A stretch of DNA of 64,000 bases. Source: Heterotrichella gracilis. Lineage: Eukaryota; Sar; Xanthophyceae; Tribonematales; Xanthonemataceae. The notes beneath the pieces are model-generated. The model saw only the letters and a program-made list of their open reading frames with translations. It was not told where the DNA came from and made no database searches. How positions within the stretch are numbered: the first letter of the stretch is position 1; each line of letters opens with the position of its first letter. Both the position numbers and the translations under genes were made by a program. This document shows, piece by piece, positions 5,091 to 63,373 of the stretch. The DNA lies in contig JAULBX010029158.1 of the NCBI GenBank assembly GCA_032358255.1, positions 62,001 through 126,000 of the forward strand. The letters run 5' to 3'.

Positions 5091-8000
5091 ATGGCGTCCG
5101 AAACGCAAGACCCCGCTGCAGGCGACGTGGGCGAGGATGTACGAGGCTGGGTGTGGCGCATGTTGCCTGGTACCACCACAGGCCCAGACTGTCCAGTGGC
5201 GCAGCAGTTGGGCAGTTTGGCCCAGCAACATTCGTTTCTACAGGAGCACAAAGGCATAGTGATGCAGGCGCTGTCAAGGTGAGCAGATGGACAGCAGATG
5301 GGTACTCAATTGCAAAAACCCATGATGCATGCATGCATTGCGCCTGGCTGGACAGTCCCTGGTATGGCCCTCGCTCCTGAACCAATTCAGCCCACAGCAT
5401 GAGATACAAACACTGTAGTGATGTGTTTGCAGCTGTTGGCCGGCATCACTTTACGAGCCTCACTGCTGGAAACCCATAATGGGTGCCCACCAAATTGCAG
5501 TCACCTTATGAGCACTGGGGTTTCTCCTTTTCATCCCATGCCCTGCAGAACTGGCAGGTTGTGGCGGTAGAGGTACTGACCGAGTGCTTGTTGTGACCCA
5601 GTGACCGCTTCCTGAGCCGCCTGACAGGCGCGCTTAATGTTGCAACCACCCCTTCAGACAGCACTGCTGAAGAGGGGGCTGCCCTAGGTGATGCAGCAAG
5701 TGCTAAGCCGCCGTTGGATGTCCATCAAACAGCCGCAGACTTGCTGTCCTTGTTCGAGTGGCTCGCAGACGCTCCAGACGTCAGCCTTCAGGCTGCAGCA
5801 AAGCCGCAGCTGAAGGCGGGCCCTTTTGCTGCGATCGGTGCAAGCGCCAACTTTGCTCAACAGCAGCTGGCGCCGACTGTGGATACGCTCGTCCGCTCCC
5901 TTGAAAGGTCTGTTGACAGACCTGGCCAGCGTTTGTGCACCAGAAGGAAGGGGGGGTCATGTGTGCAAGGGTGTCAGCCGCAACCTGCTGTAAGGACAAG
6001 CTGCCAAAGTGCTGGTTGTACGGTATACTGTTGCCCTGTTGCCTGCTTGCATGGCGTTTGGCTGCACAGCAGCAGTGCTTGTCACATGTTCCATGTGCAT
6101 GGGGTTGCCCCTCGGCCTGACTCATTGCCACTGCGCACCACCAGCTCATCGCAACCTGTGCAAACACCCTAACCCTAAACCCTAAGCACCTGACCCATGC
6201 GCACAGGCTCACCCCGCGCCCCCACGCACTGCTCTGTGCGCCGTCAGCTACACCGCAGCTCTGCAAAGACCCTAAACCTAAACCCTAAACACCTGCTCCA
6301 TGCGCACAGGCTCACCCTGCGCCCCGACGCACTGCTCCTGCGCACTGCCACCTACACCGCAACTCTGCAGCGAACCTGAACCTAAACCCTAAACACCTGC
6401 TTGCTGTCCACAGGCTCGCCCCGCGCCGCGACGCACTGCTCCTGGGCACCGCCACCTACACTGCAGCTCAACAACCCTAAACCTAGACCCGAACCACCTG
6501 CTCCATGCGCACAGGCTCACCCCGCGCCCAGACGCACTGCTCCTGCGCACCGTCGCCTACATCGCAGCCTCTGCAAAGACCCTAAACCTAAACCCTAAGC
6601 ACCTGCTCCATGCGCACAGGCTCACCCCTCGCCCCGACGCACTGCTCCTGCGCACCACCGCCTACATCGCAGCTTCAGCCAAGTCCGGCCAGCTGCGGCG
6701 TGCGGCCTTGGGGCAGGAACTCGAGAGCCTGCTGCTCACCCTGGCCAAGGTGCTGCGGGTGGTGAACAGTGCCCACTTGGGTGGCGGGCGCGGGGGCATG
6801 TGGGCAGGCACGTCGGACGTGCTGTCTGCCTGCGCGACCTTTGTGGGCAGCTGCAGCAGCGCCATAGGCAGCGACACAGACAGAAGGTGCGTGGCATGCA
6901 GCAGCCTCTTAGCCTTGTAGCAAGTTGCCCCACTGGCAAGCGGTGTGTGGTTTCTTTGCCATGTGGTGTTTTCTTTGCCAGCTATCAGGTAACAGAGCAG
7001 TCAGCCCCTACAGGCGCCTGTTTAACATCAGTGTGCGCTCCCTCCCCTTGCAGCGCTATACCTTAACTCCAAACCCTAAATCCGAATCTCGCTTGCAGGC
7101 GCTTGTGCAACATCGGCATGCGCTTCCCCCCTTGTTACCCTAAACCTATTGACACCCCCTTAACCCAATCTCGCCTGCAGGCGGCTGTTCAACATCGGCG
7201 TGCGGTTCCTCCCCTTGCTGTGGGACCTCTACTTCCCCACCAGCTCCACCTACATCAGCAACGACCCGCACGTGTATATGCGCCTCTCGCAGCTGTGCAA
7301 CGACCTGGTCAGAACGGAGAACAACCCCACCTGCCTGCGCATCTACGTGTCCTGCGCAGCGCCCGACATCGTGTTCCAGTCTGCCAAGTCGCTGTTCATG
7401 CTGTCGGCATCGAACGTGCAGGCGCAGGTGGGCGGGGAAAATAACCTGGCGAGGACCCTATGCCATAGGCCATGGAAACCCAAATGGTGCCAAAATGGAT
7501 AAAAATATCATTTCGAATGAAAAATTACTAAAGAAAGCTGGAAATTAGCTAAAATATATAAATCAAATGGATGCGAAGGTGAATATTCGTGGAGATCCTT
7601 TGATAGACCTTGGGGAAACCCTAAACAAACCCTAATGGCATCCAAAACCTACATCACAAATAGCAATATGGAAGCGCTGACGGCATCAAACGCACTAGCC
7701 TAAACCCTACGCTTGCACCCAACCCTAACGCCCTGCTATTCGCGCTACCAGGAGCTTCTGCCTGCGGCTGTGGAGATGCTGAGCCACCATTTGCAAGGAA
7801 ATCCTTCAGCTGCAGTCAGCTGCGCCCTTCAGAAGATGGGTGCAGGGCAGGTGCTCAAAGTGGCGCAGGCACGGCTCGCCAAGGTGGGTAATGTGGTGAG
7901 GGCGAGAGGGGAGGGAATGGGTGGGACTAGAGTTGCCATTGAGGCCATTGGAGTTGCATGTTTGTTTTTAATTCAACTGTGCCCGGTGCCGCGCATTTTG

Positions 8001-9146
8001 CAACTCGTAATTGGATTTAAAATTCACTTTGAAAACTATTACAGGGAAAAATCCATTTCTATGTGTGTGTTAGTCCGCCCACCAACAAAATACACATCTG
8101 GTGAATATCACGGGGATAAATGATTTCTGTGCATCCCCGCAGGGCGGCGCGAGCCCACCCGCCAGCGAGATTGAGGAGGCAGCGGAGGGGTCAAGCAGGG
8201 TGCAGCTGACAGCGGATGACAACGAGGTGGAGGCCGAGTGCATCAAGTCGCAGAAGTTTGGGTGCTCGCACAGGGGCTGCGTCAACCTGGATGGTGAGCC
8301 CAGTGACGCAATTAGCTTTTTTTAAACTAACCTTTCTTCCGTAGTTAAAACAATCTTTTAATTCTTCTATAAAGTTTGTTTTCGCCTATCTCGTGAGATA
8401 ACCTTTATGATCTCATATTAAATTTGTTTTCATCTACCGCTCAAGCCTTGTGAGTCCAGGTTGGCTCCTAAAGTTGCGACTGTTAAGGAATGTTGTAATG
8501 ATTTGCATGAGCCAATGCTCAACTCGGAGAGCCCTTCTTGTGGTTGCGAGCCCTGCGCAGGAAGCATACATATTTTTGCCACTTATTTGGTATTCTGCTT
8601 TCTGATGTTTTGCTCCTGAGTGATGTTGAAGGCGCTAGGGAGCAGAGCCTGGTGTGCAAGGCCTGCCAAGGCTTCTTCATTGGTTTCCCCCTTCATTCAC
8701 TATTTCCTTCATTTTATTGTGTGGCCCTGTGTGCTGCTGCAGCGCCATGCAGCAGAGCCTGGTGTGCAAGGCCTGCCGGGGCTGCTTCATCAATTTCCAT
8801 TCTTTTTTATACCCATTTAATTGCATGCGCTCGATGTGCTGCTACAGGCGCCAGGGAGCAGAGCCTGGTGTGCAAGGCCTGCCGGGGCTGCTTCAGAGCA
8901 CACTACTGCACGCGGGAGTGCCAGGTCGCCGCGTGGCCATCGCACCGTGTGCTGTGCAAGCGCATGCAGCAGATGCGCTCCCGCTCCACACCCACGCCCG
9001 GGGTCACGCCAGGGGAGGCGCAGAGCGAGGGGAGCGGGGACAACAAGGGGTCAGACGGGGACCAGGAGAAAGGCGGCTCTGTTGCGGGGCGCACGATGTC
9101 GACCCCGGCAGTGGCGGAGATTTCAGATTTGCTGGAGAAGGTGTGA
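5091..9146 (+). CDS. MYND-type zinc-finger protein, 529 aa, 7 exons
   Basis: Exons are 5091-5278, 5602-5907, 6620-6886, 7181-7427, 7752-7883, 8143-8293 and 8848-9146; all phases close. Residues 1-380 are alpha-helical and may form a helical-repeat scaffold of unknown identity (for example RLFNIGVRFLPLLWDLYF). The MYND finger is split by the last intron, with ligands C421, C426, C439, C442, C451, C455, H463 and C467, all present and canonically spaced. The C-terminal tail of about 60 residues is Ser/Gly/Asp-rich and ends DLLEKV. MYND fingers mediate protein-protein contacts, typically with proline-rich partners; no SET or other enzyme domain is seen. Exons 3, 4 and 7 are each preceded by truncated copies of their own 5' ends. 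The last three exons are duplicated at 13829-15125. Confidence 0.85.
6104..6680 (+). repeat. Six-unit tandem array (about 103 bp) of an intron 3' end plus exon 3 start
   Basis: Units start at about 6104 (degenerate), 6207, 6310, 6414, 6515 and 6620. Each of the last five joins a CCCTAAA-rich spacer, an acceptor-like CACAG and the first 50-60 bases of exon 3 (GCTCACCCC...GCACTGCTC...). Only the last unit continues into the full exon. The period (101-105 bp) is not a multiple of three. Confidence 0.9.
7013..7215 (+). repeat. Two partial copies of the exon 4 start upstream of exon 4
   Basis: Copies near 7013 (GGCGCCTGTTTAACATC) and 7098 (GGCGCTTGTGCAACATC) precede the true exon start at 7181 (GCGGCTGTTCAACATC). 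AACCCTAAA-type sequence lies between them. Confidence 0.8.
8634..8900 (+). repeat. Three tandem copies of the start of the MYND exon
   Basis: The segment GAGCCTGGTGTGCAAGGCC... occurs near 8645, 8755 and 8863. Only the third continues into the complete finger. The first two break off into T-rich intron after about 50 bases, so two partial C-x2-C knuckles lie in the intron. Confidence 0.88.
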
Positions 9147-10249
9147 AGGCATTGCGGGTGGGCTTCATGGAGGCGGGGCCATGGCATGGCAGGATGTGCC
9201 ACGGGGAGTACCACTGGCAGCCGCTGGCAGAGACAGTGGCTAGCCTAGGGAGAGCATAGGCAGGCGCACATGGGGCACTGCTGTGCGTGTAGTATGTATG
9301 CAGCAACTGCATGAAAACCTTACAACAGGCAGTCCATTGTGCCGTGGCACTATCATTCAGTGAACCATCGTGAAGGCTCTGGGACATATTTATCAGTATG
9401 TATTACACGAGAGTGACTCAACCCCAGTGCATGATTGCAACTGGTGTATCACATACATGTCTATTATTTATTCAAAAGTGACTCCAGTATGTATGTCGTG
9501 GCGAGATTGCAATGGGAGATTACAGCACTTGCGCACTGAGTTTCTTTTTCTGACTGCAGTACTTATGCACTCACACAAATATTCCATTTGCAGTTTTCAA
9601 AGGAAAGTATATACTATATACCGTAGTCTTACTGAGGCATGAGATTCTGTACTCGTATGCAGCCGCTCACGTTGATTGCCAATAATGTATTCAACAACAA
9701 CAAGGCCCTTGGCATCCCATCCACACTGGCCCAGTTGATCATAATGATTGATAGGCTATTCACATGCATTAGTGTGTAATGTCAGCGGCTAGCTTGGTCG
9801 TTAGCGGCTAGCTTGGTAGTACTAGTCAGCTGGCAAAACGGTGATCTGCGCATCCACTGGGGCTCGCACCGCAGAAGTTACTGGGTGGGGAAAATGACTG
9901 CCCCGCTGGAGACCAGATACACATAAAACAGGCAACTATAAACAAAATACAATTTGCTGGCCAAGCCAACATTTGTGTTGTACCTAGTGCAGACAACAAT
10001 AATTTGAGGCGTTCAATGCTACAAAACCGGGAGCATCCGAATCTAACGAGTACTTCTTGGCACAGATTTGGTATCACCGCGCCTTTTTCTGCAGTACTTA
10101 ACGTTAACAACAATCAGTGGCTGTAAATGGGCTTGAACAGTTCAAATCTTGTGAGATGGCTGCCAACCAGTCCAACTGCACTAAACACCTTCTGTGGGGG
10201 TGAGCAATGTCATATACTTTTCTTCTCTTTCTAGCTGCCCTGTCATGCC

Positions 10250-10550
10250 GCATAATAGATGTTGCTGCCCATGCAGATGTGGACAGGGGTTTATATGATT
10301 ATAGCGCCAAGGGCAGGGTCATCCTGACCTCCCCGCGGGCACCATCCATAACATTAACCACCTTTTATGGAAACAAAACAAACAAACAAACAAAAGGCGT
10401 TCCAAGCCGTCATCGGCTTATTGCCTTGTGTGCCCTTCAAGGGCACACATTAGGGACACTACATGGAAACTATACTGTTTGCCAGGAAAATATTTTTTTA
10501 GATGATGGACGCATTGGATGCTTTTGAGTTGAGAAACCACATCATCGGCT
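10250..10550. other. About 300-bp insertion specific to duplication copy 1
   Basis: Sequence on both sides matches copy 2 (around 16040-16130), but this stretch has no counterpart there. It contains an (AAAC)n run near 10373-10393. No terminal inverted repeats were recognised. Confidence 0.45.
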
Positions 10551-11764
10551 ACCGTATGCGGTCTGGACCAGCAGCCCCACATCCCTGCGGCAGTCGCTCA
10601 ACAGCCTAAAACCCACAGCCCAAATCTTAAACCCTGTAGCTGCTTACTCCTCCACGTCAGCTGCTGTGTTGTACAGCAGCTCAACCTCCCAGCAGCAGTC
10701 GATCAGCACCTAAACCCCGAACCCTAAACCTTGAAGCTGGCTACTCCTCCACGGTCAGCCGCTGTGGTGTACAACAGCTCAACCTCAACAGACAGGCAAC
10801 AGACAGGCAATAGCAACAACAGTTGTGCATGATGTACTTGCAAGATGGATATGCAGCACCCGTAGTGTTTTGAGACGGGTATACATGCCACACACAAAGA
10901 TTGGATAACCATGAATTAGACATTCCTAGTCTGTATGTCTGCTTGGCGCTGCCTGGCCTGGCCAGGTGGGTGGGTGTCGACAGGGTGTAGGACATGAGTC
11001 TCCTTGAGCAGGCCCCTCCGATGTTGTCCTGCTGGGTGGCTTAGCCCTGCCTTGTTTAAGGCTGCTGTTGAGTGCTGCTGAACTGAAGGCTGGTAAAGGG
11101 GGGTGTGGGGGGTGGGAATAGACCCCACCGTCAGCTTTGGAGAAGAGCTGCTGCTGCTAGCCGCAGCAGGATTCGATACAGGCGTGGCACTCTGCTTGAA
11201 CTGCCGTGCTTGCCAGCATGTGTGCGAGCCGAGTAGGTGCGCACAACTTTGGATACGCAACCATTGTGGGTAAACGGAACGACATACTCTGGGTAGAGCT
11301 GCCGGCTGCAATAACAGAGGCGAGCTTTGCAATAATGCATGCAATAACCATGCGTGGATATCCCCCCCGTTTCCCATTTTATTAGGGGTGATAAACATCT
11401 TGCACCGATGCAGCGCCGTACAAGGCGACCTGGTGGCTACTTCCCAGCTTATATTAGTCAGATAACAATCTCTTTGCCTAGACCCCTTAGTGAAAAACCT
11501 GCACGAAGGGGTTCACAGTGCCCAAAACGCGTTCTGTGAGGCCAGTATGCGGTGATATTGATACTTGGGATAAGGTCGAGGAACATCTTCTGCTGTGGGG
11601 TGTTGCCGGGCAACTTTGCCGACAAAAAGAACACAATGGGTGAGTTAAGCGATAGGCAAGACTGCTCCGTTGCACATTTCTACACAGTGCCATATGCATT
11701 CATACTTCCATACTGCATCGTGGTTTTCGGCAGGGGGCACATGAACCCGTGTCTCCCCGCTTTT

Positions 11765-11895
11765 CCACGATGCGGGGGGTACATGGCTGCGATGCGGGGG
11801 TACATGGTCGCGATGCGGGGATACATGAGCAGCCATGTACCCCCGCATCGCAGCCATGTACCCCCGCATCGCAGCCATGTATCCCCGTATCGTGG
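11765..11895. repeat. Near-perfect palindrome built from about 21-bp direct repeats
   Basis: The left arm 11765-11827 and right arm 11833-11895 are about 62-63 bp reverse complements with only a few mismatches, separated by a 5-base loop (AGCAG). Each arm consists of three tandem copies of a unit like GATGCGGGGGTACATGGCTGC. It can form a long hairpin or cruciform. Confidence 0.92.
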
Positions 11896-12680
11896 AATTC
11901 ACCCCCGCAGCGTGGGAATGCACCCGTCACACTCATTCACTCCTCACTGACGTCAGAACAGCAATTTGCACAAGGAACGCATCGGCGAAACAGCAGGCCA
12001 GGATCACAGCATGCATGCATATGCTACACCATGCGAATTCGAAGCAAGGATCAGCAACGCACAGGACAGCAACATTCAGCGGAATCACCTGTTTGAATAG
12101 CAAGCTTCACAGAAATGCAAAGCAGTGTACAAGGTATACAGCGATGCAGGGCGTGGCACCGAACTAAGGCACTGGATGGGCTTTCAGCACGGCTCACAAC
12201 GGTGCACAGGCAAAACTATGAGACTCACAGCAAGCATCACAACAAGCTCTACATCAGCTGAGTCGTACAAACAGCAAGCTTCACAGCTCGATGCAGCGTG
12301 CACACCACCCAGGCAAAGCAGCAAGGTTCACAGCGATGCACGTGCATGGCCAGCACGTGCATCGATGTGTTAGCCCTGTTTTACAGTGCACTGGTTACAA
12401 ACTAGCAACGATCACAGCAAGGTTGACAACAACGCACTGGTACTGTTTGGAACGATCAGAGCAAGGTTGGCAAGTAAACGGCATGCAGGCATGTGGTAGC
12501 ATCGAACACTGGTACAACGCATGCATGCATATGCGTCCAATCGAACAGTGGTATGTGACAGTGATGCAACGCGTGCGTCCAATTTAACGTTGATACGGAG
12601 CATGCGTTGCATCGTGCATCCGATTGCAGGCAAGAATGAGACGGATCTGCCTCAAACCACGGTATTTGGTATGGAAGCCC

Positions 12681-12831
12681 CTTGGATACCTCCAGAGGCG
12701 GACACCTCGTTTGTATACCGGCACCTCGGAAGCGGGGACCGGACCCTCGGTCTTCGACCCCGGGACCGGGTCCCCGCTTCCTCGGCTTGCCGGTATCCAT
12801 ACTCGGTGTCCAGCCCCTGTCGGTATCCAAG
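12681..12831. repeat. 151-bp imperfect inverted repeat (hairpin or MITE-like)
   Basis: The outer ends are CTTGGATACC (12681-12690) and GGTATCCAAG (12822-12831). The inner arms are GGAAGCGGGGACC (12728-12740) and GGTCCCCGCTTCC (12769-12781), with a GGTC-TTC-GACC core. No open frame and no clear target-site duplication were seen. Confidence 0.75.
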
Positions 12832-12878
12832 TAATACATGTACCCAGGGTGCACCGTTGTATGAGCTAATACAAGTGG

Positions 12879-13560
12879 GTGTCTGCTGACGTTGTACTTT
12901 CTTTGTCCTCTAAAAGTCTGTTTGCCTCCATGGTCGCAGATGAGACTCCAGTCGTGGCCAAGCTTGTCCCACATGTCACTGAGTTGAGTTTCAAGCCAGG
13001 CCAAACCAGAGAAGGTGTCAAAGTTTCCTTTGAAGTCGCAAAACAGCTGACAAGTGACGTGACACCGCTGGACTGGACGGCGTATCTGCCAGCAGGTACT
13101 TTGCCCACGCCAGTACTGTTGGAAGGTGGCCAAACCTTGGAGGAGTTTATGGAGGAAGCCCGCGAAGTAGTCACCATCTACGACAACACCTTGGTGATGG
13201 TAAACAGAGCCTCTGGTATGCAATGCTGCAGCCCAGATCCTCCTGCTGAGCCTTGGCGAGTCAACACTCACCACAACATCGTCCGACCACTTCAAGAAGG
13301 CGGGCATCAACAGCGAAGTTGTCCAATCACTGGCAAAGATTCTGGGTCTCCAGCCCCAGAGTCTGGTAACACAGGGGGACTTGGTCATCGAGCGCTGCAA
13401 AGCTGCAGTATACCCTGGCACTCTGTTGGATCTCGATGAGCACGTGGAACAGCTCCAGGAGGTTGTTGACGGCCTCCCAGAACTGCAAAAGCAGTGCAAA
13501 GTCGAGTGCCTGGTCCTCAAGACCTACCAGGCCATCAGAATGGGCTTCCCAAGCGCCTAG
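12879..13560 (+). pseudogene. Unrecognised intronless ORF broken by one frameshift
   Basis: A protein-like frame starts at an ATG at 12879 (a second Met is at 12930) and reads acidic, regular sequence (for example ELSFKPGQTREGVKVSFEVA) to about 13217. It then continues in the +1 frame to a TAG at 13558-13560 with equally protein-like text (VDGLPELQKQCKVECLVLKT). The shift falls at about 13215-13225. I recognise no family. Codon use is less GC-rich at third positions than in the flanking MYND and EF-3 genes. The absence of introns, the frameshift and the position between two duplication copies suggest an inserted element, retrocopy or decayed gene. A 16-nt GT...AG stretch at 13216-13231 would also restore the frame but is far shorter than other introns here. 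A sequencing error is equally possible. Confidence 0.45.
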
Positions 13561-13804: not shown

Positions 13805-16260
13805 TTGCCCTGCCAACCCCGCCACCAGGAGCTTCTGCCTGCAGCTGTGGACGTGTTGAGCCACCCACTGCAGGGAAACTCCTGTGCTGCAGTCAGCTGT
13901 GCCCTCCTGAAGATGGGTGCGGTGCAGGTGCTCAAAGTGGTGCAGGCACGGCTCACCCAGGTGGGTAACGCGGTGGTGGCAAGAGTGGAGGGAGTGCGTG
14001 GGTATGGGTTTGTAGCTCAGGCTGCAGGAGTTGCATATGTTTCTATGTGAACTGCGCCGCGCGTTTTGTTCTGCTCTGGATTCTGCTGTCCAAAGCGCAG
14101 TGTGGTATTTGGACGTTTGGATGTGGCAGGTGTGCCTAATTGTGTGCAGCCAATGGAGCATTACATGCCAGCAGGGTCACCACAACACTATTGCCACCAA
14201 AAGTCAAGCGTTGTTGTGCATGTGCCTGAAGTTGGCAACAACTCAGCTGCCTGCTGCATCGAGGAGCCTGGATCTGAAATCCTTATTTGAAAATTGATAT
14301 TGATTGCTGTGCGTGTTACCTGCAGTGCAGCGCCAGTCCAGTCAGTTACTTACTTCTAAATTTACCCAGTTTTTAATCACTGGGATAAAAGTTTATTCTG
14401 TGTGTGTGTGTTACCCGCAGGGCGCCGCCAGCCCACCCGCCAACGACATCGAGGAGGCAGCGGGGGTTTCCAGCCGCATGCAGCTGACTGCTGATGACAA
14501 TGAGGTGGAGACCGAGTGCATCAAGTCACAGGAGTTTGGGTGCTCACACCGGGGCTGCCTCAACCTGGATGGTGAGCACAATGACGTAAATAGGTTAAAA
14601 ATGACCTTCTTATCTTCTGTGAATTGTGTTTTCATCCATCGCTCAGGTCGTGGGAGCCCAGGTTGGCTCCCTCAATGTGATTTTCAAAGAGTTTTATTTC
14701 TTGTAATGAGTTGCATGAGCTGATGCTCCTTCCATGATTATAAGCCGTGTGCAGGATATATATTTTTACTGGTTATTTTGTATCTTGTTTTGTCATTTTT
14801 GCTCCCGTGTGCTGCTGCAGGCGCTAGGGAGCAGAGCATGGCGTGCAAGGCCTGCCGGGGCTGCTTCAGGGCGCACTACTGCACACGGGAGTGCCAAGTC
14901 GCCGCATGGCCCTGGCACCGAGTGCTGTGCAAGCGCATGCAGCAGATGCGCTCCCGCTCCACACACGGTCTAGTGGCCACGCCAGGGGAGGCGCAGAGTG
15001 AGGGGAGCGGGGACAACAACTTAAAGGGCTCAGACGGGGACCAGGAAAAAGGCGGCTTGGTTGCGTGGCGCACAATGTCGACCCCAGCAGTGGCGGAGAT
15101 TTCGGATTTGCTGGAGGAGGTGTGAAGGAATTACGGGTGGGCTTGATGGAGGCGGGGCATGGCAGTCCTGCGGTGTGCCGGGGCATAATACCGCGGGCAG
15201 CCGCGGGCTGATGTAGAAGCTAGCCTAGGGAAAGCATAGGCAGGCGCACATGGGGCACTGCGGTACATGCCATTGCTATGGTAGTATGTACACAGATACT
15301 GCATGAAAACCTTACAACAGGAGGTCCATCGTGGCTTGGTCCATCATTCAGTGAACAGTCGGGAAGGCTTTGCGGCATGTTATCAGCATGCATTACTGAA
15401 GAGTGGCTGGACCCCAGCGCAAGCCCCAGGGTCGGGACTGGTGTATGGGATACATGACAGCTATTTATTGAAGCGTGACTTCAGAAGTGACTTTTGTACA
15501 GCACTTGCGCACTGAGTTCCTTTTTCGTAAAAGTATTATAGCGCTGCACACATATACACATGCATACTTTCATCGTCTTACTGACTTAATTGTCTTAGAC
15601 TAGTTCTCATGAGATGTCTGTACTGTAGCGAATCGCTCAATATTTATTGCCAATAATTTTCCAAAAGCAGCAGACGGCTACAACAAGGCCCTTCAAGCCT
15701 GTCAAGTTGACAGCCCGCAGCATTCAATGGCAGCCCATATGGTAATCCACATGCCCAGTTGATCATAATGATTGATAGGCTATTTCAAACACTAAGTGTA
15801 TACTGTCAGCTGCTGAGCTTTGATAGTGCTGATCAAACGGTGACCTGAACATCCGCTGAAGCTTGCACTGCAGCAGATACTGGATGGGAAACATGACTGC
15901 CATCAAGTGGATGGAGGTCAGGCATATTGTATGTAACATTAAAACTCTTGCTGGCCAAGAAAGCGCAACAAATGCAGCCAACAACAATTGATTGTCGAGC
16001 CGTTCATGGCTACAAGGACGTTCACCAGTGTGACAGCACTCCACATCTTCTGTGGAGGTGAACGCCGTTATATCCCTTTCCTTCATTCAAGCTGCGCCTC
16101 CCACATCAGCCGCTATGTGGTCCGGCAGCCCCACCTCTCTGTAGCAGTCCTGAGCAGTTGCTCAACACTATAACCCCCAAAGCCCAAACCCTAAACCTAA
16201 AAGCTTGGCTACTCCTCCACGTCAGCCGCTGTGTTGTACAGCAGCTCCACCTCCCTGTAG
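13805..16260. repeat. Segmental duplication, copy 2
   Basis: This is the counterpart of 7725-10790. It contains MYND exons 5'-7', the shared 3' flank and the intact 3' end of the convergent minus-strand gene. Confidence 0.82.
13829..15125 (+). pseudogene. Orphan MYND-finger cassette, duplicate of the last three exons of the 5091-9146 gene
   Basis: Three exons match exons 5-7 of the full gene with conserved splice sites and phases: 13829-13960, 14421-14571 and 14821-15125. The frame is open to a TGA. All MYND ligands are kept (CSHRGC, then CKACRGC, YCTRECQ and HRVLC). Differences are mostly substitutions plus a two-codon insertion (NNLKGSDG against NNKGSDG-type text) in the tail. Unlike copy 1, the MYND exon is not preceded by echo copies. 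No 5' exons (equivalents of 1-4) lie upstream. The cassette is therefore either a 5'-truncated pseudogene with a surprisingly clean frame, or an alternative 3' cassette reached by long-range splicing from exon 4 (donor at 7428). The latter is inference. Confidence 0.75.
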
Positions 16261-19200
16261 CAGTCGCTGAGCAGCTTGGACAGCAGCGCCTGGCCCGGGG
16301 GCACCTTGCCCTCCCGCAGGTTGCCCTCGAAGATGCCGTCGTTGGCCATGCGCTCCGCGTCGATAGTGTCCAGGTGGCCCTGTAGAGTACAGGTTTGGGG
16401 TTTAGGGTTTATGTTAAAGGGTTTAGAGTTTGAGGGATGGAGCCATGCGGTCCGCATCGATGGTGTTCAGGTGGCTGTGCGGAGGGCACATGGTTAGGGT
16501 ATATAATTTTCGGGTTATAACCTGTAGGGTTTGGGATTTGCGCATCGAGGGTGTCTAAATGTGCAAATTGCATTGAATGCACATCACATCACATATTGCC
16601 ATGCCATCGCCTTGCGCACGCTGGCCAGGTGCTTATGCTGCTTTGCAACTTTTGAATATCTTACTGCAGTATGGACCCTGTAATATTAAACTGCGGTATA
16701 CATATATGGACCCTGTTGCACATTTGCAGTTACACAACCATACTAACCCCATTGTCAGCAGACACCCTGTGCACAGAGAACCCAGAGCGGCGTACCTGGA
16801 TGCGGCGGATGTCGTCTGTGGTGTGCGCCACCTTGCGCAGGTCAGCCAGATGCTTGTGCTGCTTCACCAGTGCCCTGTGGATGCGCTCCATCTCAGGCGG
16901 CATGCTGGCGGCACACGCCAGCAGGCGCTCAACCAGTGCTGAGGGGAAAGGACAAAAGAGATGAGTGTGAGGGGTTATAAATCATTATTTGTGCAAGAGC
17001 GGTTTCCAATATACGGTAGTACACTGACGCATGCAGGACAGTACCACTCCTTGTGTTGTGAAGTACCACTTACTGTTTAGGGTTTAGGGTTTAGGGCCAC
17101 TTACTGTAGCACTGCGCCAGCAGCTCTGATGCCACCGCCTGGCCCTCGGGGATTTTGCCTGTGGCCGGGTCCCCACAAAACACCCCATTCACGCGCCTGC
17201 TGTCAATGGCATCCAGCATGTTCTGCAGGTATGGGCACAATGTGAGTGGGCGACGCCTTGCTAGAAAGGCTAGCTAGGGCATTTCAGATTCACAGCAACA
17301 ATTCGGGAGCCAATTCGGGCTAAGGTTGTACCAGAGTGTGAGACGAACACAATAAAGTTAACCCGCTGTGCAGCATCCAGGCCAGGGTCTTACAGATGCC
17401 CAGCAGATCGTGGCACACTGCGTTTAGGGTTCAGGACTCAGGGTACTCGTTTGGAGTTTAGGGTTTTGGGTTTCAGAGCCTACCTGGAAGTGGCGCACGT
17501 CCTCGTGGGTGTGGCCCCTGTCACGCAGCATCCTGGCCAGCGCGTTGCGGATTCCCGACAGATTGTTGCACACGTTGCGCACCTCGGGGGCCATGTCCAG
17601 CGCACTGGGGGTCAAGTCGGCGATCAGCTCTACAACCAATGGTGGCACAGGGTCGGTCAAGGTTTGGTCGCTGAACGCATAAACCTCAAAACCCTACACA
17701 AGGGTTTTGTCCAGGTTGCCCATGGGGGTGGCACAGACGGTGTTTCCAGGCACAAAATGCAGGGCAGGCATGGAAGGAATTCCAACCCACTGGTAAATTA
17801 CCAGTGGTATTTGCCCCAGGCCATCGCACTGTGCAGATGGCGGGACCTCGACACCAGTGATGGTCCAACCACCACTACAACAACCAGATGTTCAATTTGA
17901 TCCCCTAAAATGCCTACCGTAGCACTGGTTCAGCAGCTCTGTGCACACCGCCTGGCCCGCAGGGATGAGTTCTCCCTCCACGCGCCCGCCAAACACGCCG
18001 CCGTTGCCCAAGCGCTCACTGTCAATCTCATCCAGCTCACCCTGCGCGCAAGGCACCCAGCAGGATGAGCACAAATATATTATAAAAATAAAAAGCAAGT
18101 AAGATAAGGCAGGATGCTGAGCAGCTCGTTTAGGGTTTAGGGTTCGCCGCACACCTGGATTGTGAGGAGCTCTTGTCAGGGTTAGCTACACACCTAGACA
18201 GTGAACACATCGTCTAAAGATCAGGATTTGGTTGTAGTGCAAGCCGCACACCTGGATCGTGAGCAGCTCGTTGAATGTGTGGTCCATGTGGTGCATATCC
18301 AGCAGGCGGTTGCGCAGCTCCATTAGGGCTTAGGGTTTTAGTTAGGGTAAGCCGCACACCTGGATTGTGAGCAGCTCGTTGAACGTGTGGTCCCTGTGGT
18401 GCATATCCAGCAGGCGGTTGCGCAGCTCAAGGAGGCGCGCCTGGATGGCGGCAACCGCCGGCGCCATCTTGCGCAGGTTGCGGGACAGGCTCTCCAGCAT
18501 GTCTGGTTGGCGGGGGGAGGGAGGCGTCAGGCACGGGTGGTGAGGGAAGGATTGTATACGGTGGCTCATGGCGTTGCTGTGCATGCCCCTGAGTGCAGCT
18601 CCGGCCACAAGTGAGCCACGCCAATGCCAATGCAGTGCCATGGAATGCTGTTCTTCAAGAACGGCAGAGATTGCCAGGTCTGCTGAGGTTGACAACCACA
18701 AGGCTGACATCCCATGGCTGTAGAGAAAGCGGCCGGTCGACCAGTCAGAGCACCGCTGTCCCCACTGTGGGTTGCAGGGGTGGGTTGTGGGTTTAGGGTT
18801 TAAGGTTGCAGGGTTGCAGTTGCCTACCATAGCACTGGTTGAACAGGCTTGAGCAGAGGTCGGCAGTCTTCTGGTCCACACGTGCCACCTCCTGGGCAAA
18901 TACGTCGTCCTTGCGCCAGCGCTGGTCGATGTCGTCGAGCAGGGACTGCGTTTGGTGGGCACACATGCGTGTCACTTGCAAGAGGGTTTGAGCTGGACCC
19001 GGTCACGGTTTGCACGCCAACGATACCAGTGGCCACAATGTCACATGCAAAAGCCCAAATCCATACGCTTGTGCGTCAAATTCGCTGCTACTTGCAACTG
19101 CGAGGTGACAGATGTGGTTTGCGAAACGTGGTTGCCTGAGGACACCTCAGAGCGTGACTCATGGGGTGAGCGTGGCTAGCCTTATAGCAGTTGCAACCTC

Positions 19201-55677: not shown

Positions 55678-58600
55678 TCAATCGTCGTAACGTGCGGGAG
55701 AGGGCTTCCCCCAGCAAAGCTTGCCTTTGGAGTTCACGGGCTGGGTGAGCTTGCTGAACTTGGGCCCCTTGCCCGGGGTCTGCAGGGTGGACTGGAAGTA
55801 GTCGTACAGGGACCCTGAAAAGTCGGTGAAGGCGCCATCGATGCCCTCAACCTCGAAATAATATTTGTATTCCTGCAGGGGGAATTGGGGTTTTATTAGG
55901 GTCTAGGGTTTAGCAGCGGAGGGCGTTGAAGCGAGGCGGCAAAGGGGAGGTCCCGGGAGGATGGCAAAGTGTGCAAATGTAAGCAGGGAGTACACCAACA
56001 GTGGGCCATGAAGTGCCGCTGTGTATGTGGCTTGTGTGACCTGTGCCCCAAGGCCAGAGTTCTGCGCCTTGTTGCCTGAACCCAAATCCGGCTGACCTGC
56101 CCCTCGTTGAACTCTAAATCCTTAATCTGCAACCTGAGCGCCTCACCTCGCGCATGTCCTCCTTGTAGTTTCACAGCAGGAACTGCGTCTCATTGAACCT
56201 TAAACCCCAAACCCTAAGCCTACACCTAAAATGTGAGTGCCTCTCACCTCGCGCATGTCCTCCTTGTAGTTCCACAGCAGGAACTGCGCCTCATTGCGGA
56301 AGGTGTAGGGGTGCACAGCCAGGCCGCGCTGCTTCAGGCGGGCAACCAGACCTGCAGGGGAGGGGACACGGTGTAAACACTTGGGCACAGCTTGTAAGGC
56401 AGATCGTGCTATTACTGTTGCAATTCTGTGCGTATTGCCACAGTACACGTAGGGCGCGCGCCATTATGGTGTGGGCATGTGAGTCACTTAGGGCATGGCT
56501 GGCCTCCAAATGGCATCGTCCCCTCTCACTCTGTCGATTTCTATACAAACACCTTTAGATGTGAGGCACATCTCTTGGCCGCTGATTAGCACAACACAAT
56601 GTTTCCTAATTTATAACTCATTTCTTGAATGTCGTCTTCTCATTCTCAGAATTCATAACAGACTGTTCCATTTGTTATGAACCAAAAACATGTCCAACGT
56701 CCACACCTGTGGACCCGGTCAGGACGTTTTTGGCGGTGGTGATGAACATGCCCTTGGAGGGGCCAACACCAACAGCGTAGGTGGCAATGTCATCTAGCGA
56801 TGCATCGGTGGTGAACTGCGCCTGGGTCTGCTTGGTGTCCCACACTGTGCCCCCCATGAGCTGGATCATGGGGCTGAAGGTGCGCTTGTTCATGTACTTG
56901 AGGTTGTTCACCTGAGAGTAGGGTGGGGGGTGGGGGTGGTGAGGGTTTCTTTAAGGTTTTCCGTCCTTAGGGCTTTGTGTAGGGTTTATCATGGAGAGGT
57001 ACAGGAATACGGTGACGCCTTACTGGTGAAGTGCGTCTTGTTCTGCTTGGTGCCCCAAACGGTACCACACGTGAGCTGGGTAAGAACTAAAATTCTACCC
57101 AGTGTACATATGAGCTGAAATTGTAGTGCGCGCCTTCATGACCTCGAGGTTGCCTCCCAAATATCAGGTTTCTCCTACAATACAGAGCACCTATGGGGCC
57201 CAACTGAGGCCTCATATGATACTAGCACCATGCCTGCAGCTCCCACTTCCTGAGGGAACACCCACCTCGAAGGACTGGATGAAGATGGGCTTGGACAGCC
57301 ATGCGGTGCTGCAGTAGTCGTTGGTGTAGCCGCGCTTGTGCAGGGTGGCCAGCACCAGGTCCTCAAAGATCTTCTTCACGCTGGTGAGGATGGGGAGGGA
57401 GTTGATGAAGCTGGGGTGCTTGGTCTCGGGGTAGATCCCCACCACGCGCCCGTTGCGGGTGAAGTTCTGGGCCAGGGTGATGTACTCCTCCAGGGTGGGG
57501 ATCTGCACCACATTTGGAATGGCTTAGGGTTTAGGGTATGCGTAGGAGATGGGGATGGGTAACTCGAGGCAATGCACCACGGTGGAGTCGACGATTCCGT
57601 GCATTGTGCTTCCCGGTTTGTAAGATGACGTTAAGCTTAGATAAATACAACAACGATCATAAATTTGTCCAAGTTTGTGGGCCAGGCTTGTGCGCATACA
57701 AAGGCATTGTATGTGCACAGCATGGCTGCAGCCATGGACCTGGGCATAGCCACAACAGTGTTGGGTCAAGTGTGTTATTACCTTGAACAGCCCGTTGAAG
57801 GCCTGCTCCCTGAAGGCAAATGGCTGCACCGCGCGCAGGGTCTTCACCTGGGCTAGGGTCAGGTCGTGGGCGAACACACCCTGCAGCAAATAAAGGCGAA
57901 TTAAAGCAATGAATAAAGCTGCGTTCAAATAACTCATCGGCATCTGTCATTAGGGTAAAAAGAGATATGTGTGCAAATTTACTACATGTGCCCATACATC
58001 TGCTCACCGTCATGTTGTTTCCATCCACGATGTAGGTCTTTGACTTGGATGGGAACTTGGTGAGGGCATCTGTGGTGGTGGTCCACACGCCGTTCACCCA
58101 CCCGCCAAGCAGAGGCTCGTGGCGGCAGATGATCTGATAGTAGGAGGGGAGATGGATAAAATGGAATGGTCTGCGGAAATTTAGGAGGCGAATGCTACAT
58201 CTGACATGACTAAAAATAATACCCATGGTACATAAGGCGTAAGCTGGGGATCCTTGATTGCAGCACCTGCCGCAGTCTATGAGACGACTTCAATACAATA
58301 TCCTGAACTTACATTGCATGTCTGGGCAATTGCAGTCAGGAAAAACCTCTGTTCTGCGCACATGCAATGCGCTGTGATGGCATTTGCATCCACATGCATA
58401 TCATATGACAGCGTCTTGCACAAACAATTATACCTGCTTCCCCCCGTCCTGTTACTAACTTGATTGCAATGAATTAGTGCATTGCAGCACCAGCACCCAC
58501 CTGACGGTCCTTTGTGAGCACCATGTCGCACTCGATGAAGTCAGCACCGGCGTCAATGGCGGCCATGTATGACTCCATGGTGTGGTCGGGGTACTTGCCG

Positions 58601-61600
58601 CACATGCCCCTGCAACAGGGACAATAATAAAAATAATGCTGATGATTATTTCCTTGCAGATACTCAGATGTATCATAGCTGGTAATGACTGGTGCTCAAT
58701 AGAATACCGGATTCCATCAGTATTTATAAATGCTTATGATGTCATAAGTTGGAAATGTCACCACTGACAGGCTGCCACAGGGTGCATTACCAACTTTCAG
58801 GAAGATGGCACACGATGACCCATCAGACTGTTTGAAAGACCCTTCAGGGTTTGCCATTTCCCAGTCTGGTTGCTGGCATGTCACAGTGTCTGTGGTCCCA
58901 TTTGACTACCTCCCTTGTGCGATGCCGCCATGTTTCAGGTCATTATGGTAATTTCCTTCTGTGAGGTACCCACCACGGCCTGTTTAGGGTTTAGAGTAGG
59001 AGTTCAACCCTAAGCTAGGGTCCCCACCTGTGGCCAATGACCCACGGCCTGTTGGTTGGCAGGCGGTCGGCGCTGCGCACATCTGATGGCGACCTGTCGG
59101 CAAGCTTGAGCAGGCGGGTGAGGCCGTTGCGCATGGTGCCGGGGGAATCAGAGAAGCCGCCGTCAACCTCGTTCTGTGATGAGGGGACAAGAGCATATAT
59201 GACATGATTACTGTTTGGATCCACACTGAGAGTAGTATATATAGCACAGGGGGTGGTTTGTGTAAAAACTCCTGTAGCCAGTTTGGAATGAACCTGGCAA
59301 ACATACAGACCTGAAGCAGGGATGCTGCCTTATCATGCATGCAGAGAGGGCACACGCAAAGGCTGGACTCAGTAACAGTGGTGACCAGGGCTGCATTGTT
59401 GTTCTCACCTCCAGAAAATATCTAGCATACCCTAAACCCTAAATCCTCACCTCCACAAAGTACTTAGCATACTCGTTGTACATGTCCGACACATAGTCAA
59501 AGGCCAGGTTCCTGCAACATGCCACAGAGAATGAATGACAGTGCACAAGCCACTGCTCATGCTGGACTAGTCAGTGAGAAAATGTTTCGTGGGTGTAATT
59601 TTAATCAATCAATCAATGATGAGTTTAGCGGCTAGCGCTCAGCCCTCGGTTCAGTTCAGCATTTACCAGTGCTGATTGCTGGGCCCAATGTGAACCCACT
59701 TGCAGGTCTGTCACAGCATTGGCACAATCTACGAGATATACAACCCCAAACCCCATACCCCAAGCAAATATATCTGAGATCTCTCTGCCTGCACGCACAT
59801 GTACAACGCCATGCCGCAATCGCATCTCAGCAAACCCACGCTGCCACTGCCTGGCCACCGTGGAAGTGTAAATAAACTTTAAAGTTTGGTTTGAAAACCC
59901 AACTCTCAAAAATAGCTCAGACGGCATCCTTTCCCTGCTTCACTTACTGCACTGGCGCGTTCCTCAGTGTGTAGAGGTGCACCTGCAGGCCCACGGCGTG
60001 CGCGCGCTGCACAAAGTCGGTGGCAGCAAGCAGGCGGTCTGCGGGAGGGGGAGCAAATATAGATCAGGCAAGTGCTTGAATCCAAGTTTGTGGGTGGGTG
60101 TGTCACACATGGATGGGCCCAGTGGGTTGCCACAGCACATGGGCACTCACTGGATGTGAAGTTGGTGGGCAAGGGGATGATCATGGGCAGGCATGATCAG
60201 GGGATTGATCACAGAATGCGCATCACTAATGATCATAGCATGATCACTCACTGGATGTGAAGTTGGTTGGCAAGAGGGATGTGATCACGGGATGATCAGG
60301 GATGATCACATGGAGATCACGCCACGATCACAACATGTGCATCGCTGATGATGACAGGATGATCAAAAATGATGCAAGGCTGATCACCACATAATCATAA
60401 AATGATTTGAGATGATCACAGCATGATCACTGCATGGTTACTTACTGGTTGTGAAGTTAGTTGGCACGATGTACTGCTTCCATGGGCCCACACCAGTGGC
60501 GTACTCAGACATCTTAGCAAGGCCCTCGTCGGTGGCCATGTCCTGCGAGGAAAAAAATACACATATATTTTAAACAAATAAAACTAGGCATGTAGGACAG
60601 AATTCTACGCTGACTGTACTGCTGACTCAGGTGACCACATTTAAGTAAGCTATACAAATTGTAGAGAATACACATTCCTCATCCAGCAGCTGCAGCATCG
60701 GTTTAGGGTTCACATTGTAGGGTTTAAGATTTAGGGTTTTGGCTACTCCCCCCACCTTGTAGTCAGTGCCTGTATCGGCAGTCACTGCACCCTCCTCATC
60801 CAGCAGCTGCAGCAGTGGGATGCTTGACACCGAGTTGAGCCACTTGAGGTTGTTGATCTCAAAGGACTGGATGAACACGGGCTTGACCATCCACTTGGGG
60901 GAGCCAAAGGGGCCGGTGTAGCCATACTTCTTCAGGATCTGCGGGGCCAGGGGGAAACAAATGATATTACAAAAAATAGATGCATGTTTACATTGATCTT
61001 CAACAGTGAAAGGGGCCGGTGTAACCGTACTTCTTCATCACCTGCGGGCCCAGGTGGGAATTAAATTTGAAATGACATGAAAACAGCTGCATGTTTTCAA
61101 TACTCCCACACAGTGAAAGCGCAAAAAGTGGCGGTAAATGCCCCCGCCGATGCATGTTGGTACTGCAGCAATTGTGGCGTCACTTTACCCAAAGCCCTGC
61201 TCCCTGCATAGGGTAGAAGACACTGCCAACCCTGCACCCTCCACCCTAGCTACACATACATTGAGCACCACTTCGCTCATGCTTGTGTTCTTGAGGCAGG
61301 TTGCCCCCAGCTTGGCCTGGTGCCATGTGGGGTGCTTGGTCTCCGGCTCAATGCCCACTGTGCGGGAGGCGTTGAGGGCAAGCTGGATGTACTCCTCAAA
61401 GGTGGGGATCTGCAAGAAACAAAGAAACTATTAAATAAACAACTGGATTGAAGAAAATGAAATAGCAGCAATGCAGCATCGCAGAGACTAAGCAGAGACA
61501 GCATAGAGCTGAGTGCAATGTGGAGGGTCAGGCATGACATGGTCTGATAGGAGGAGGTGGCGCTACACAAAGGGATGTGAGGCAGCGCACGCATGTGAAT

Positions 61601-63373
61601 GCGTGTGGAAGCACAGCTGCATTGCATGCCTGCATGTGCATAAATGCATCAATTGCATTTGCATCAACTGACTCTGCAAAAGCATGCTCGGATATGGTTG
61701 CGATCGAATCAAGCCCCTTTACATACCATTGGGTGTGGGACCCTGTGTTTTGGGAGGCCACAATAATTCCTCAAGACACACAATTGCATAGTTTGGGGAC
61801 AACAGCCGTAGCTGGAATTTAGGGTCTCGGTAGGGTTTAGGGTTTACCTCGAACAGGCCGTTGTAGTTAGGGTCACGGTAGGCCACACGCTGCACTGCGC
61901 GCAGGGTCTTGATGTCGGCAAGGGTCATGTCGGTGGAGAAGTAGCCCTGCACGAGGGGTGAAATGGGTTTTCCATTAGGGTTTAGGGTTTAGGGTTTAGA
62001 TTCAAGTCGGTGGAGAAGCCGCCCTGCACAAGGGGTGAGAGGGGGTTTCCATTAGGGTTTAGGGTTCGATTCAAGTCGGTGGCGAAGCCGCCCTGCACAA
62101 GCAGTGGAAGGGGAGTTCCACTAGTTTAGGGTTTAATGTCAAGTCGGTGGAGATGCAGCCCTGCACAGGCAGTAAGGTGCAGTGTGTCTTAGGTATCTGA
62201 TAATAGAACTCCGCCTCATTAGGCCTATGGGCTAGTCTGCCAAGTGGAAGCATATCATGTTATTATACCCCTCCGGATACCAAGACTAGACCATCCAAGC
62301 AGCTTATGTTTGGGGGTTTAGGGCATAAATATACCCCTTCCTTGTGGGCAAAATGAAGTGTAGCTGTTTTGTAACTGTCCCATAACACAGCTGACGCAAC
62401 CCGCTAATATCAACCGGCATAATTGCACGAACTGTTCCCTGCACCCACTACAGAACCAAGGGCCACGAGTGAATTTACAAATACTAAGAGAGCTATCCTG
62501 AACCCACCTCCTCGCTGTTACCATCCACCACATCGGTTTTCTTCAGTGCTGGGAACTTTGATGCCACATCAGTGGTGGTGATCAGGTTAGGTTCATGACG
62601 GCAGATGGGCACGCAGTCCTTGGTCAGCACGATGTCGCACTCGAAAAAGTCGGCGCCCTGCATTGTAAAGCGATAACCTCTCGTACACGTTTAGTTTGGA
62701 TGGAGGGGGCAGGGTCAAGAGCAAGCAAGCGGCGCATATTCTGCCGGTTCCCGCCCTTCGCATTGCGTGCTCATGACGCACAAATAGCGAGCACCATGAC
62801 GCAAATACCGTCACCTGTCCCACGTCAAGCATGCTTCACACCTAAAATGATGACCATGACAGTGATGCAGTGTCCTTGGACACCGTCGGTGCATTGCTTC
62901 TTGCCCATAGCATGCATGTGCAGCAAATGTGCGTCTGGACACAAGCACAACTGCACACTGACTCGCACAGGACAGCCACGACCGCTGCCGTGCCTCCCAA
63001 CGCTCCAATATTAGTGTATGTTGACATCTGTTCACACAGAGTGCACAGCAGTGCCATGTAACGCGACAAGTACACCCATGTGTGGTGAATGCATGCATGC
63101 CAGTGACGTCAAGTGGGTGTGGTTAGCCTGGCCGCTGATCTATATCCAGGTCTTGGAAAATCCAAACCACACCACAAACATGGTATCAAAACTGCTTACA
63201 TCCTCAATGGCCTTGGTGTAGCCAAACATGGTGTGCTCCGGGTACGCAGCTGCGCTCCCCCTGTGGCCAATCACATATGGTGGTGAACCGAATGGCTTCT
63301 TCTTCCCTCCCGCCTGGGCTACGGCCAACGCCGTAGCCAGGACCAGCAGCGAACACAGGAACTGACGACCCAT
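55678..63373 (-). CDS. Secreted tandem-domain glycerophosphodiester phosphodiesterase, 741 aa, 16 exons
   Basis: Exons are 63373-63200, 62657-62508, 61946-61848, 61409-61260, 60938-60756, 60542-60446, 60038-59948, 59511-59451, 59173-59028, 58609-58501, 58133-58008, 57880-57782, 57502-57266, 56911-56707, 56351-56248 and 55872-55678; phases close. Residues 1-21 are a signal peptide ([17 protein letters not shown]). Two GDPD barrels follow, at about 33-375 and 380-720. Domain 1 has H37-R-G39, E64-x-D66 and H79; domain 2 has H383-R-G385, E410-x-D412 and H425. These are the catalytic and metal residues of the family, present in both halves. The enzymes hydrolyse glycerophosphodiesters to glycerol-3-phosphate plus alcohol. 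The two-domain layout resembles plant SHV3/GDPDL proteins, but no GPI-anchor signal is evident at the C-terminus (SPARYDD). Internal duplication is also visible in matching exons (3 and 12 are both 99 nt). Confidence 0.92.
56134..56310 (-). repeat. Echo of the GDPD exon 15 donor region
   Basis: About 60 bases at 56244-56300 recur at 56142-56197 with a few changes. AAACCCCAAACCCTAAGCC lies between them. Confidence 0.88.
56804..57160 (-). repeat. Echoes of GDPD exon 14 in the upstream intron
   Basis: Parts of exon 14 (56804-56911) have diverged copies at 57014-57080 (TCTGCTTGGTGCCCCA) and 57127-57150 (CATGACCTCGAGGTTG). TTTAGGGTTTATC-like sequence lies nearby. Confidence 0.65.
59405..59475 (-). 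repeat. Echo of the GDPD exon 8 donor
   Basis: CTCACCTCCACAAAGTACTTAGCATAC (about 59446-59472) has a copy at about 59404-59430. CCCTAAACCCTAAATC lies directly between them. Confidence 0.85.
60145..60475 (-). repeat. Echoes of the GDPD exon 6 donor embedded in a GATCA-rich minisatellite
   Basis: Copies of GGATGTGAAGTTGGT at about 60152 and 60252 parallel the exon edge at about 60447 (GGTTGTGAAGTTAGT). The spacer (60170-60440) is dense in TGATCA/GATGATCAC units. Confidence 0.82.
60660..60820 (-). repeat. Echo of the GDPD exon 5 donor region
   Basis: CCTCATCCAGCAGCTGCAGCA occurs at 60794 (exon) and about 60677 (intron). GGTTTAGGGTT and GATTTAGGGTTTTGG lie between them. Confidence 0.85.
61919..62175 (-). 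repeat. Three echoes of the GDPD exon 3 acceptor region
   Basis: GTCGGTGGAGAAG.AGCCCTGCAC (about 61930) recurs at about 62007, 62076 and 62141, each followed or preceded by TTTAGGG runs. None continues into a full exon. Confidence 0.88.

Follow-up and report, generated by a model that had tools for sequence, protein, structure and literature searches.

In a 64,000-nt stretch of the xanthophycean alga Heterotrichella gracilis (GenBank assembly GCA_032358255.1, contig JAULBX010029158.1, positions 62,001 to 126,000; hereafter the window), introns contain extra copies of segments of their own exon edges. These copies, which we call echoes, are usually separated by filler that includes the telomere-type heptamer CCCTAAA/TTTAGGG. 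The explanation that we favour, and to which we give about an even chance, is that echoes are scars of recurrent insertion-duplication, in which a staggered break or paired nicks would be followed by fill-in, addition of telomere-like filler, and end joining.

The window (positions 62001-126000 of contig C663) was analysed together with 13 stretches picked by coordinate alone (126.7 kb), giving 190.7 kb of an assembly of 68.5 Mb in 903 contigs; contig labels (C1 to C824) and stretch labels (L004 to L045) are working labels. Gene models came from a small hidden Markov model gene finder seeded with the EF-3 gene (setting K=2, pI=-9), which recovers 8 of 8 hand-set EF-3 exons, although these are its seed and hence no independent check. 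The models provide a sample of 150 introns flanked by good exons, with a median length of 283 nt; four low-GC stretches (L006-L008 on C1 and L011 on C100) yielded no gene models.

Exon-edge copies exceed chance

A direct-repeat scan (score of at least 16, copies at most 700 bp apart) returned 118 pairs in the 190.7 kb (the window contributes 64), versus 1, 0, and 0 in three whole-sequence shuffles. The echo repeats are real, and chance does not explain them. Eighteen of the 118 pairs are less than 60 bp apart, and many of these are short-period or coding repeats. All six example echoes of a preliminary description of this DNA could be located in the sequence, five via the scan and one (59404/59446, 23 of 27 positions identical) below its threshold.

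We compared the last or first 50 exon nucleotides with the adjoining intron at a score of at least 28. Matches to the own intron were obtained for 31 of 300 exon edges (18/150 donors and 13/150 acceptors), compared to 1 of 151 exon middles (Fisher p = 4.8e-5) and none of 2,862 pairings of edges with unrelated introns. At score 24, the corresponding counts are 37/300, 3/151, and 12/2,862. The self-comparison of introns with exon edges and exon middles that had been proposed as a check therefore comes out in favour of the edges in the 150-intron sample. However, the excess is partly built in because tandem steps of approximately 100 bp cannot reach exon middles, and as any short tandem duplication would produce it, it is a weak test of targeting. 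This weakness benefits a rival explanation, in which short tandem duplication is unbiased and is followed by selection and decay: exonic events would be purged, intron-only events would fade twice as fast, and telomere DNA would simply be a common filler. We consider this rival credible but somewhat unlikely.

Echoes are present in 28 of the 150 introns: 16/72 in the window, 3/23 in neighbouring stretches of the same contig, and 9/55 on six other contigs chosen blindly, where L009 and L015 are without echo introns. At such a frequency, the process could be studied by comparing strains. Median intron length is 361.5 nt with an echo and 274 nt without. The preliminary description had placed echoes in introns of most genes; they do occur in the genes it named, but were scored in only the 16 of 72 window introns given above, i.e., in 2/4 introns of MYND1, 2/7 of DUF2408, 2/11 of EF-3, 4/16 of GDPD, 6/26 of a merged CFAP58/ZFC3H1 model, and 0/8 of three other models.

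For the analysis of junctions and spacers, one best pair per class was kept per intron, leaving out pairs with a separation below 30 and intron-internal pairs where the intron had an exon-involving pair. The resulting 31 events in 26 introns comprise 9 that cross a donor, 9 that cross an acceptor, 10 whose match in the exon lies entirely inside it (1-64 nt from the exon edge), and 3 confined to the intron. The copies are mostly at one edge, with the far splice site of the intron separate, and the copied segment (X) varies in length from about 20 to 80 nt. For the 28 exon-involving events, the step between copies is 71-117 bp in 15, 133-228 bp in 10, and longer in 3.

An echo-free paralog

MYND1 and MYND2 are tandem paralogs that differ in echo content. 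MYND2 has a single copy of the acceptor plus approximately 48 nt of the zf-MYND exon (14808-14868), whereas MYND1 has three. MYND1 8421-8679 aligns with MYND2 14622-14868, from intron into exon (71%), and MYND1 8835-9284 aligns with MYND2 14808-15264 (86%), so that the distal MYND1 copy continues the intron flank common to MYND2 and the proximal copy continues the exon body. This alignment is most simply read as a gain of the extra copies by MYND1 at the point where the old intron meets the exon body, with loss in MYND2 as a possible alternative. The MYND2 site is a candidate for the homologous empty site of a telomere insertion, though the filler in this MYND1/MYND2 comparison is non-telomeric. 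The MYND1 echoes concerned (8630 and 8742) are missing from the junction, edge, and spacer counts because of a false mini-exon at 8753 in the gene model, which also has a false exon start at 6467 (the true acceptor is probably 6620).

Telomere-type filler lies between the copies

A heptamer separates the copies in 21 of the 28 exon-involving events, versus 4.4 expected from random intron stretches, which bears out the earlier statement that copies are usually separated by heptamers. Outer flanks of equal length contain a heptamer in 6/28 events (discordant 15:0, p = 6e-5), and four of these six sit in visible arrays. The position of the filler between, and not outside, the copies suggests that in simple cases filler and duplication arose together, giving X-filler-X in one step. 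A plain minisatellite does not fit the 15 of 21 heptamer-filled pairs without outer filler, even though some loci are arrays. Telomere blocks are also found in 21/28 introns with an echo versus 42/122 without.

The filler repeat unit equals the telomere repeat of the organism, given that (CCCTAAA)5 arrays open seven contigs (C70, C140, C526, C609, C717, C770, and C824) and an array also ends C173. Genome-wide, (CCCTAAA)2 occurs 5,629 times and the reversed motif 5 times, and C626 encodes a TERT RNA-binding domain. TTTAGGG telomeres are described as prevailing in Chlorophyta (PMC7046594).

Among 39 telomere-bearing spacers, 23 have at least two blocks, and 22 of these 23 show a single orientation (the mixed one has G then C). 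Filler fidelity averages 78%-80% in 32 fillers and is perfect in L045, L017, and window 61975-61999; it shows no relation to age (Spearman p = 0.69 across the 32). The filler may be captured telomere DNA, a product of imperfect synthesis, or mixed. One-sided end-extension by telomerase is unsupported because there is no position polarity, and clean telomerase synthesis followed by decay is unsupported because filler is degenerate even in young events; telomerase priming on the AG|GT donor is conceivable by eye in two cases but not in general. In L035, at the contig end of C173, TTCAGGG and TTTTAGGG variants are interspersed with TTTAGGG before the array becomes perfect at the end. Such a variant array is a possible source of degenerate filler.

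Are splice junctions targeted?

Had the events fallen uniformly over introns and their edges, 11.4 of 31 would be expected to cross a junction, whereas 18 do (p = 0.006). In the subset with a score of at least 22, 16/24 cross versus 9.1 expected (p = 0.002). Junction copies include less intron sequence than a uniform fall would give (Kolmogorov-Smirnov p = 0.046; for the two remaining subsets, 0.050 and 0.33). Telomere blocks themselves crowd splice sites, with a median distance of 38.5 nt versus 80.6 nt expected; 40 blocks lie within 30 nt of a donor and 17 within 30 nt of an acceptor, where 15 are expected in each case. The first and last 67 nt of introns hold 94 block counts (136 in whole introns), compared to 13 (36) for the reversed motif, with blocks in introns shorter than 134 nt possibly counted twice in the 67-nt tally. 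The crowding persists in echo-free introns (35.5 versus 67.6 nt), and within 40 nt of a splice site the 122 echo-free introns have 27 donor-side and 13 acceptor-side blocks. This crowding gives partly independent support for a junction bias.

We also looked at six interstitial loci chosen for a telomere array alone (L016, L017, L024, L025, L027, and L045). An X-array-X arrangement is present at two of them: a script flagged it at L045, with a step of 103, and visual inspection identified it at L017, with a step of 59.

Weighing insertion-duplication against unbiased duplication

In the process that we favour, a staggered double-strand break or two nearby nicks would arise, in many cases spanning an exon edge or close to one. 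Fill-in of the two overhangs, which share the same 20-80 nt of X, would create the duplication; telomere-like DNA would be joined to or captured at an end, and end joining would then give X-filler-X. The copy attached to the exon body would stay functional, while the intronic copy would decay, often keeping its donor or acceptor; at some loci the unit has been amplified in tandem. The enzymes and breakpoints of this process are inferred. Edges may dominate what is seen in part because exon-internal events are purged and copies of exons remain recognisable.

Several observations weigh against this explanation, starting with the filler. Seven of the 28 spacers have no heptamer, some of them between very similar copies (33206, 98%). 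Telomerase acting on one 3' end should leave G-strand blocks beside the first copy and C-strand blocks beside the second, and this polarity is absent (p = 0.24). The copies of X are 97.6% identical in 15 young pairs, but their filler is only 78% telomere-like, where local alignment running through non-telomeric bases lowers the filler figure and trimming raises the X figure; filler in young pairs was therefore probably imperfect at birth. A CTC1_2 profile search matched nowhere, controls included, and is hence uninformative. Other observations concern the junctions. With a twofold faster decay of intron-only copies, the expectation rises to 15.7 crossings, versus the 18 seen (p = 0.23), and in the subset with identity of at least 0.95, 6/12 cross versus 3.5 (p = 0.085). 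The DUF2408 event at 16101 lies beside a stop codon, not a splice junction. The duplications at L045 and L017 are not across modelled exon edges, although the models are weak there. Among the other array-chosen loci, L024, L025, and L027 have no duplication around the array, with blocks in both orientations at L027, and L016 (C46, near the contig end) has only long-range duplications, with steps of 551-569 bp and pieces 96%-100% identical.

Unbiased duplication followed by selection and decay draws on several of the same facts: the crossings at decay weight 2, the event beside the stop codon, and above all L045 and L017, from which it gains weight because their duplications cross no modelled exon edge. 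Set against it are the 28 exon-involving events out of 31, which exceed the null up to decay weight 5 (p = 0.004; p = 0.045 at weight 8), a null that makes no provision for the ten wholly exonic matches, and the telomere blocks, which are not protected by an exon copy and still crowd splice sites, echo-free introns included. An extra bias toward exon edges is thus possible, but not proven. Of the earlier proposals, that of a repeatedly acting mutational process with telomere-type filler is upheld by edges, filler, paralogs, and recurrence, while junction targeting is upheld only in part (p = 0.006 becoming 0.23): 18/31 events cross a splice junction, yet in 10/31 the exon match lies entirely inside the exon, and one event is beside a stop codon.

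Replication offers a different route. Template switching after fork stalling, akin to microhomology-mediated break-induced replication, could occur at the step in GC content between exon ends (61%) and introns (49%) and copy telomere DNA from elsewhere. This would fit filler that is degenerate at birth, the recurring step length, and the non-telomeric nature of some fillers. However, a cross-locus comparison of 67 spacers (in the sampled sequence minus the four low-GC stretches) gave only 3 weak matches and hence no source of filler, and we think template switching quite improbable.

Possible consequences for introns and splicing

When blocks are read on the gene strand, CCCTAAA outnumbers TTTAGGG by 52 to 7 in the acceptor half of introns, versus 38 to 39 in the donor half. 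The scarcity of TTTAGGG on the acceptor side is likely caused by selection, because TTTAG|GG would be a decoy acceptor. In the branch-point zone (-50 to -14), AACCC, AAACC, ACCCT, TAAAC, CCCTA, and CTAAA are among the 15 most enriched 5-mers, and telomere filler may, judging from these words, supply branch points.

Only the exon-contiguous copy had been said to give an open frame. This does not hold generally, since the gene finder takes an echo as coding at window 56147-56161, in L004, and in L010. In the models, introns run between the copies at L004 3637-3698 and L010 5542-5603 (62 nt) and at window 56162-56247 (86 nt); if the models are right, these three could be exceptions and candidates for intron gain by tandem duplication (AGGT model).

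A more far-reaching proposal is that telomere-linked break repair prefers exon-intron boundaries, probably through a tie to transcription or splicing, and that it lengthens introns by approximately 100 bp per step, duplicates splice sites, and supplies C-strand branch-point DNA, so that intron anatomy would be built in part by the telomere machinery. We regard this as improbable. If true, the junction bias would account for the lengthening of introns and their surplus splice sites, and the growth of introns through DNA repair could then be tested directly.

Recurrence across the genome

Word pairs used as a signal of the pattern recur across the assembly. CAGGTGAG followed by CCCTAAAC after 3-33 nt is found 160 times (reversed control 1; version with CAGGTCAG 46), counts that are unadjusted for word frequency. 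With GTTTAGGG, there are 240 occurrences (control 2), and CCCTAAAC ahead of TTGCAGG occurs 297 times (control 0). Among the matches listed, at least 20 are same-strand recurrences within 250 nt, on 14 contigs; counting the equal repeated steps of an array on C179 once, 15 steps are 76-116 bp (mean 102, standard deviation 10.5) and five are 146-224 bp.

An artefact of assembly or gene modelling might be suspected in a draft of 903 contigs, some apparently non-algal, annotated with home-made models. Yet copies differ by 0%-23% across many unrelated contigs, the paralogs show presence and absence, and the model recovers eight EF-3 exons (its own seed); we consider an artefact very improbable.

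Relation to known systems

In rice, tandem duplications with filler reportedly arise through patch-mediated break repair; these are natural, short, and from the green lineage. The rice duplications are not known to contain telomere filler or to favour exon edges. It has also reportedly been proposed that introns arise by tandem duplication or break repair, and introner elements in protists have reportedly been the subject of a further study besides that on Amoebophrya.

The components of insertion-duplication each have a precedent, as fill-in duplication (PMC8355091) and as telomere insertion at breaks (PMC2246262). In the former, CST-guided fill-in by Pol alpha-primase of complementary 3' overhangs yields small tandem duplications (PMC8355091). 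Likenesses to our echoes are a length of tens of nt, the lack of pre-existing repeats, and a fill-in complex that is the telomere C-strand machinery; the echoes show the arrangement of this type, neighbouring copies of tens of nt with filler confined to the space between them (15:0 discordant; outer filler too in 6 events). Unlike the echoes, the published duplications come from mouse and human cells with induced nicks, and telomere filler is not among the features given in the excerpted text of PMC8355091. In mammals, telomere-repeat tracts are inserted at double-strand breaks, some with target-site duplication, which the excerpted text reports as rare (6/130 rodent and 4/25 primate loci; PMC2246262). 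The algal loci are similar in that short telomere tracts are inserted with duplication at some. They differ from these mammalian interstitial telomeric sequences, as far as that text describes them, in having blocks in 21/28 echo introns, steps often of approximately 100 bp, crowding at exon edges, some tandem amplification, and mostly degenerate filler (PMC2246262).

Direct repeats near splice sites have been compared at both intron borders (4-30 bp, mean 11.4) and, like our echoes, are repeats at intron borders taken as traces of breaks (PMC11782384). In the echoes, by contrast with the repeats outlined there, 20-80 nt of one edge are copied inside an already existing adjoining intron. Amoebophrya introners are repeated introns with inverted repeats of 8-20 nt and direct repeats of 3-5 nt, and share with the echoes that they are repeated insertions tied to exon-intron borders in protists (PMC7789003). 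A mobile family, either introner-like or a telomere-bearing retroposon, could make the echoes target-site duplications, since X-filler-X resembles an insertion with such a duplication and the filler has telomere repeats. The fillers are, however, unlike introners in having no sequence common to loci (the 3 weak matches among 67 spacers), and X varies in length; we therefore reject the mobile-element reading, which has hardly any chance of being correct, noting that terminal inverted repeats in the fillers were not searched for systematically. Our searches of the open-licence literature brought up no description of exon-edge copies with telomere filler inside introns. The finding joins telomere-type filler, short tandem duplication, and intron evolution, which are usually treated separately.

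Catalogue of echoes and other features of the window

Table 1. Echoes and related features in the window, with positions counted from its first nucleotide
Gene	Feature	Position	Strand	Remarks
MYND1	Tandem array of acceptor, exon start, and telomere-type filler	6131-6619	+	Unit ~104 bp
MYND1	Two echoes of acceptor edge of exon beginning 7181	7007-7051, 7085-7131	+	Heptamers between copies
MYND1	Two echoes of zf-MYND exon start at 8848	8630-8679, 8742-8789	+	Non-telomeric filler; missing in MYND2
MYND2	Lone acceptor edge (echo-free comparison state)	14808-14868	+	Paralog alignment
DUF2408	Echo of end of last coding exon (original 16217-16265)	16101-16149	-	C-strand heptamers between
DUF2408	Echoes of donor edge (exon 18360-18502)	18241-18320, 18146-18172	-	Direct-repeat scan
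EF-3	Echo of donor edge 27504-27526	27595-27617	+	23 nt identical; AAACCCT blocks in filler
EF-3	Echo of exon segment 27957-27975, 28 nt inside next donor edge	28040-28058	+	Direct-repeat scan
CFAP58/MBO2-like	Echo unit (73-bp step) of acceptor edge, exon 31973-32171	32208-32287	-	Direct-repeat scan
CFAP58/MBO2-like	Echo of donor edge 32654-32711, same intron as 32208 echo	32477-32534	-	Filler G-strand on gene strand
CFAP58/MBO2-like	Two echoes of donor edge 33640-33688	33204-33476	-	No heptamers in spacers
CFAP58/MBO2-like	Two echoes of donor edge 36536-36584	36360-36486 (at 36360, 36438)	-	Direct-repeat scan
ZFC3H1-like	Echo of donor edge 45532-45605	45430-45503	-	74 nt, 95%; perfect 16-nt telomere block between
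GDPD	Echo of donor edge 56243-56296	56142-56195	-	54 nt, 96%; partly readable as coding
GDPD	Echo of exon segment 56809-56864	57024-57079	-	80% identity
GDPD	Echo of donor edge 59446-59472	59404-59430	-	23/27; two perfect heptamers between; under scan threshold
GDPD	Echo of exon segment 60793-60814, 37-59 nt inside donor edge	60676-60697	-	22 nt identical; telomere-type filler
GDPD	Echo of acceptor edge 60906-60951	61009-61054	-	No heptamers
GDPD	Three echoes of acceptor edge 61924-61973, steps ~68-77 bp	61999-62173	-	Perfect telomere blocks

Tandem amplification is seen in MYND1, where Tandem Repeats Finder gives 5.2 copies over 6131-6671, upstream of the exon that probably begins at 6620, and in GDPD, where 61925-62167 holds 3.4 copies. 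In the CFAP58/MBO2-like gene, the two copies of the 33640 edge match it over 49 nt (33206-33254, 98%) and 46 nt (33412-33457, 96%). The DUF2408 original at 16217-16265 lies a few nt inside the stop codon (16209-16211) and is a coding edge, not a splice site.

In Pfam searches of exons, MYND1 and MYND2 each gave a zf-MYND match, EF-3 an ABC match, and the first plus-strand gene a TPR match; there was no match for 6 of the 10 single exons submitted. With spliced models, the GDPD and DUF2408 domains were found. The gene previously called MBO2 has a borderline match to the CFAP58 coiled coil (26.7 versus a cut-off of 27). ZFC3H1-like is likewise a name from the preliminary description, and two exons of that gene matched no Pfam family.

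Four further repeats in the window deserve mention. At 10570-10800, far from the DUF2408 gene, there are two diverged lookalikes of its C-terminal end (compare 16209-16265) with telomere-type filler between them, which may be the remnant of a paralog since lost or an echo that was transposed. Between MYND1 and MYND2 (11768-11925), a 21-bp minisatellite occurs as abutting blocks of opposite orientation. Tandem repeats with periods of 39-132 bp and no telomere filler lie within a ZFC3H1-like coding exon (48586-49397), and a GDPD intron (60050-60440) combines many TGATCA-type words with a pair of decayed donor echoes at a distance of 101 bp. Outside the window, C1 (894 kb; L006-L008) and C100 (L011) have 33%-37% GC and uninterrupted open frames of up to 1,739 amino acids, in contrast to the remaining stretches with 51%-58% GC; these two contigs are probably non-algal and bacterial.

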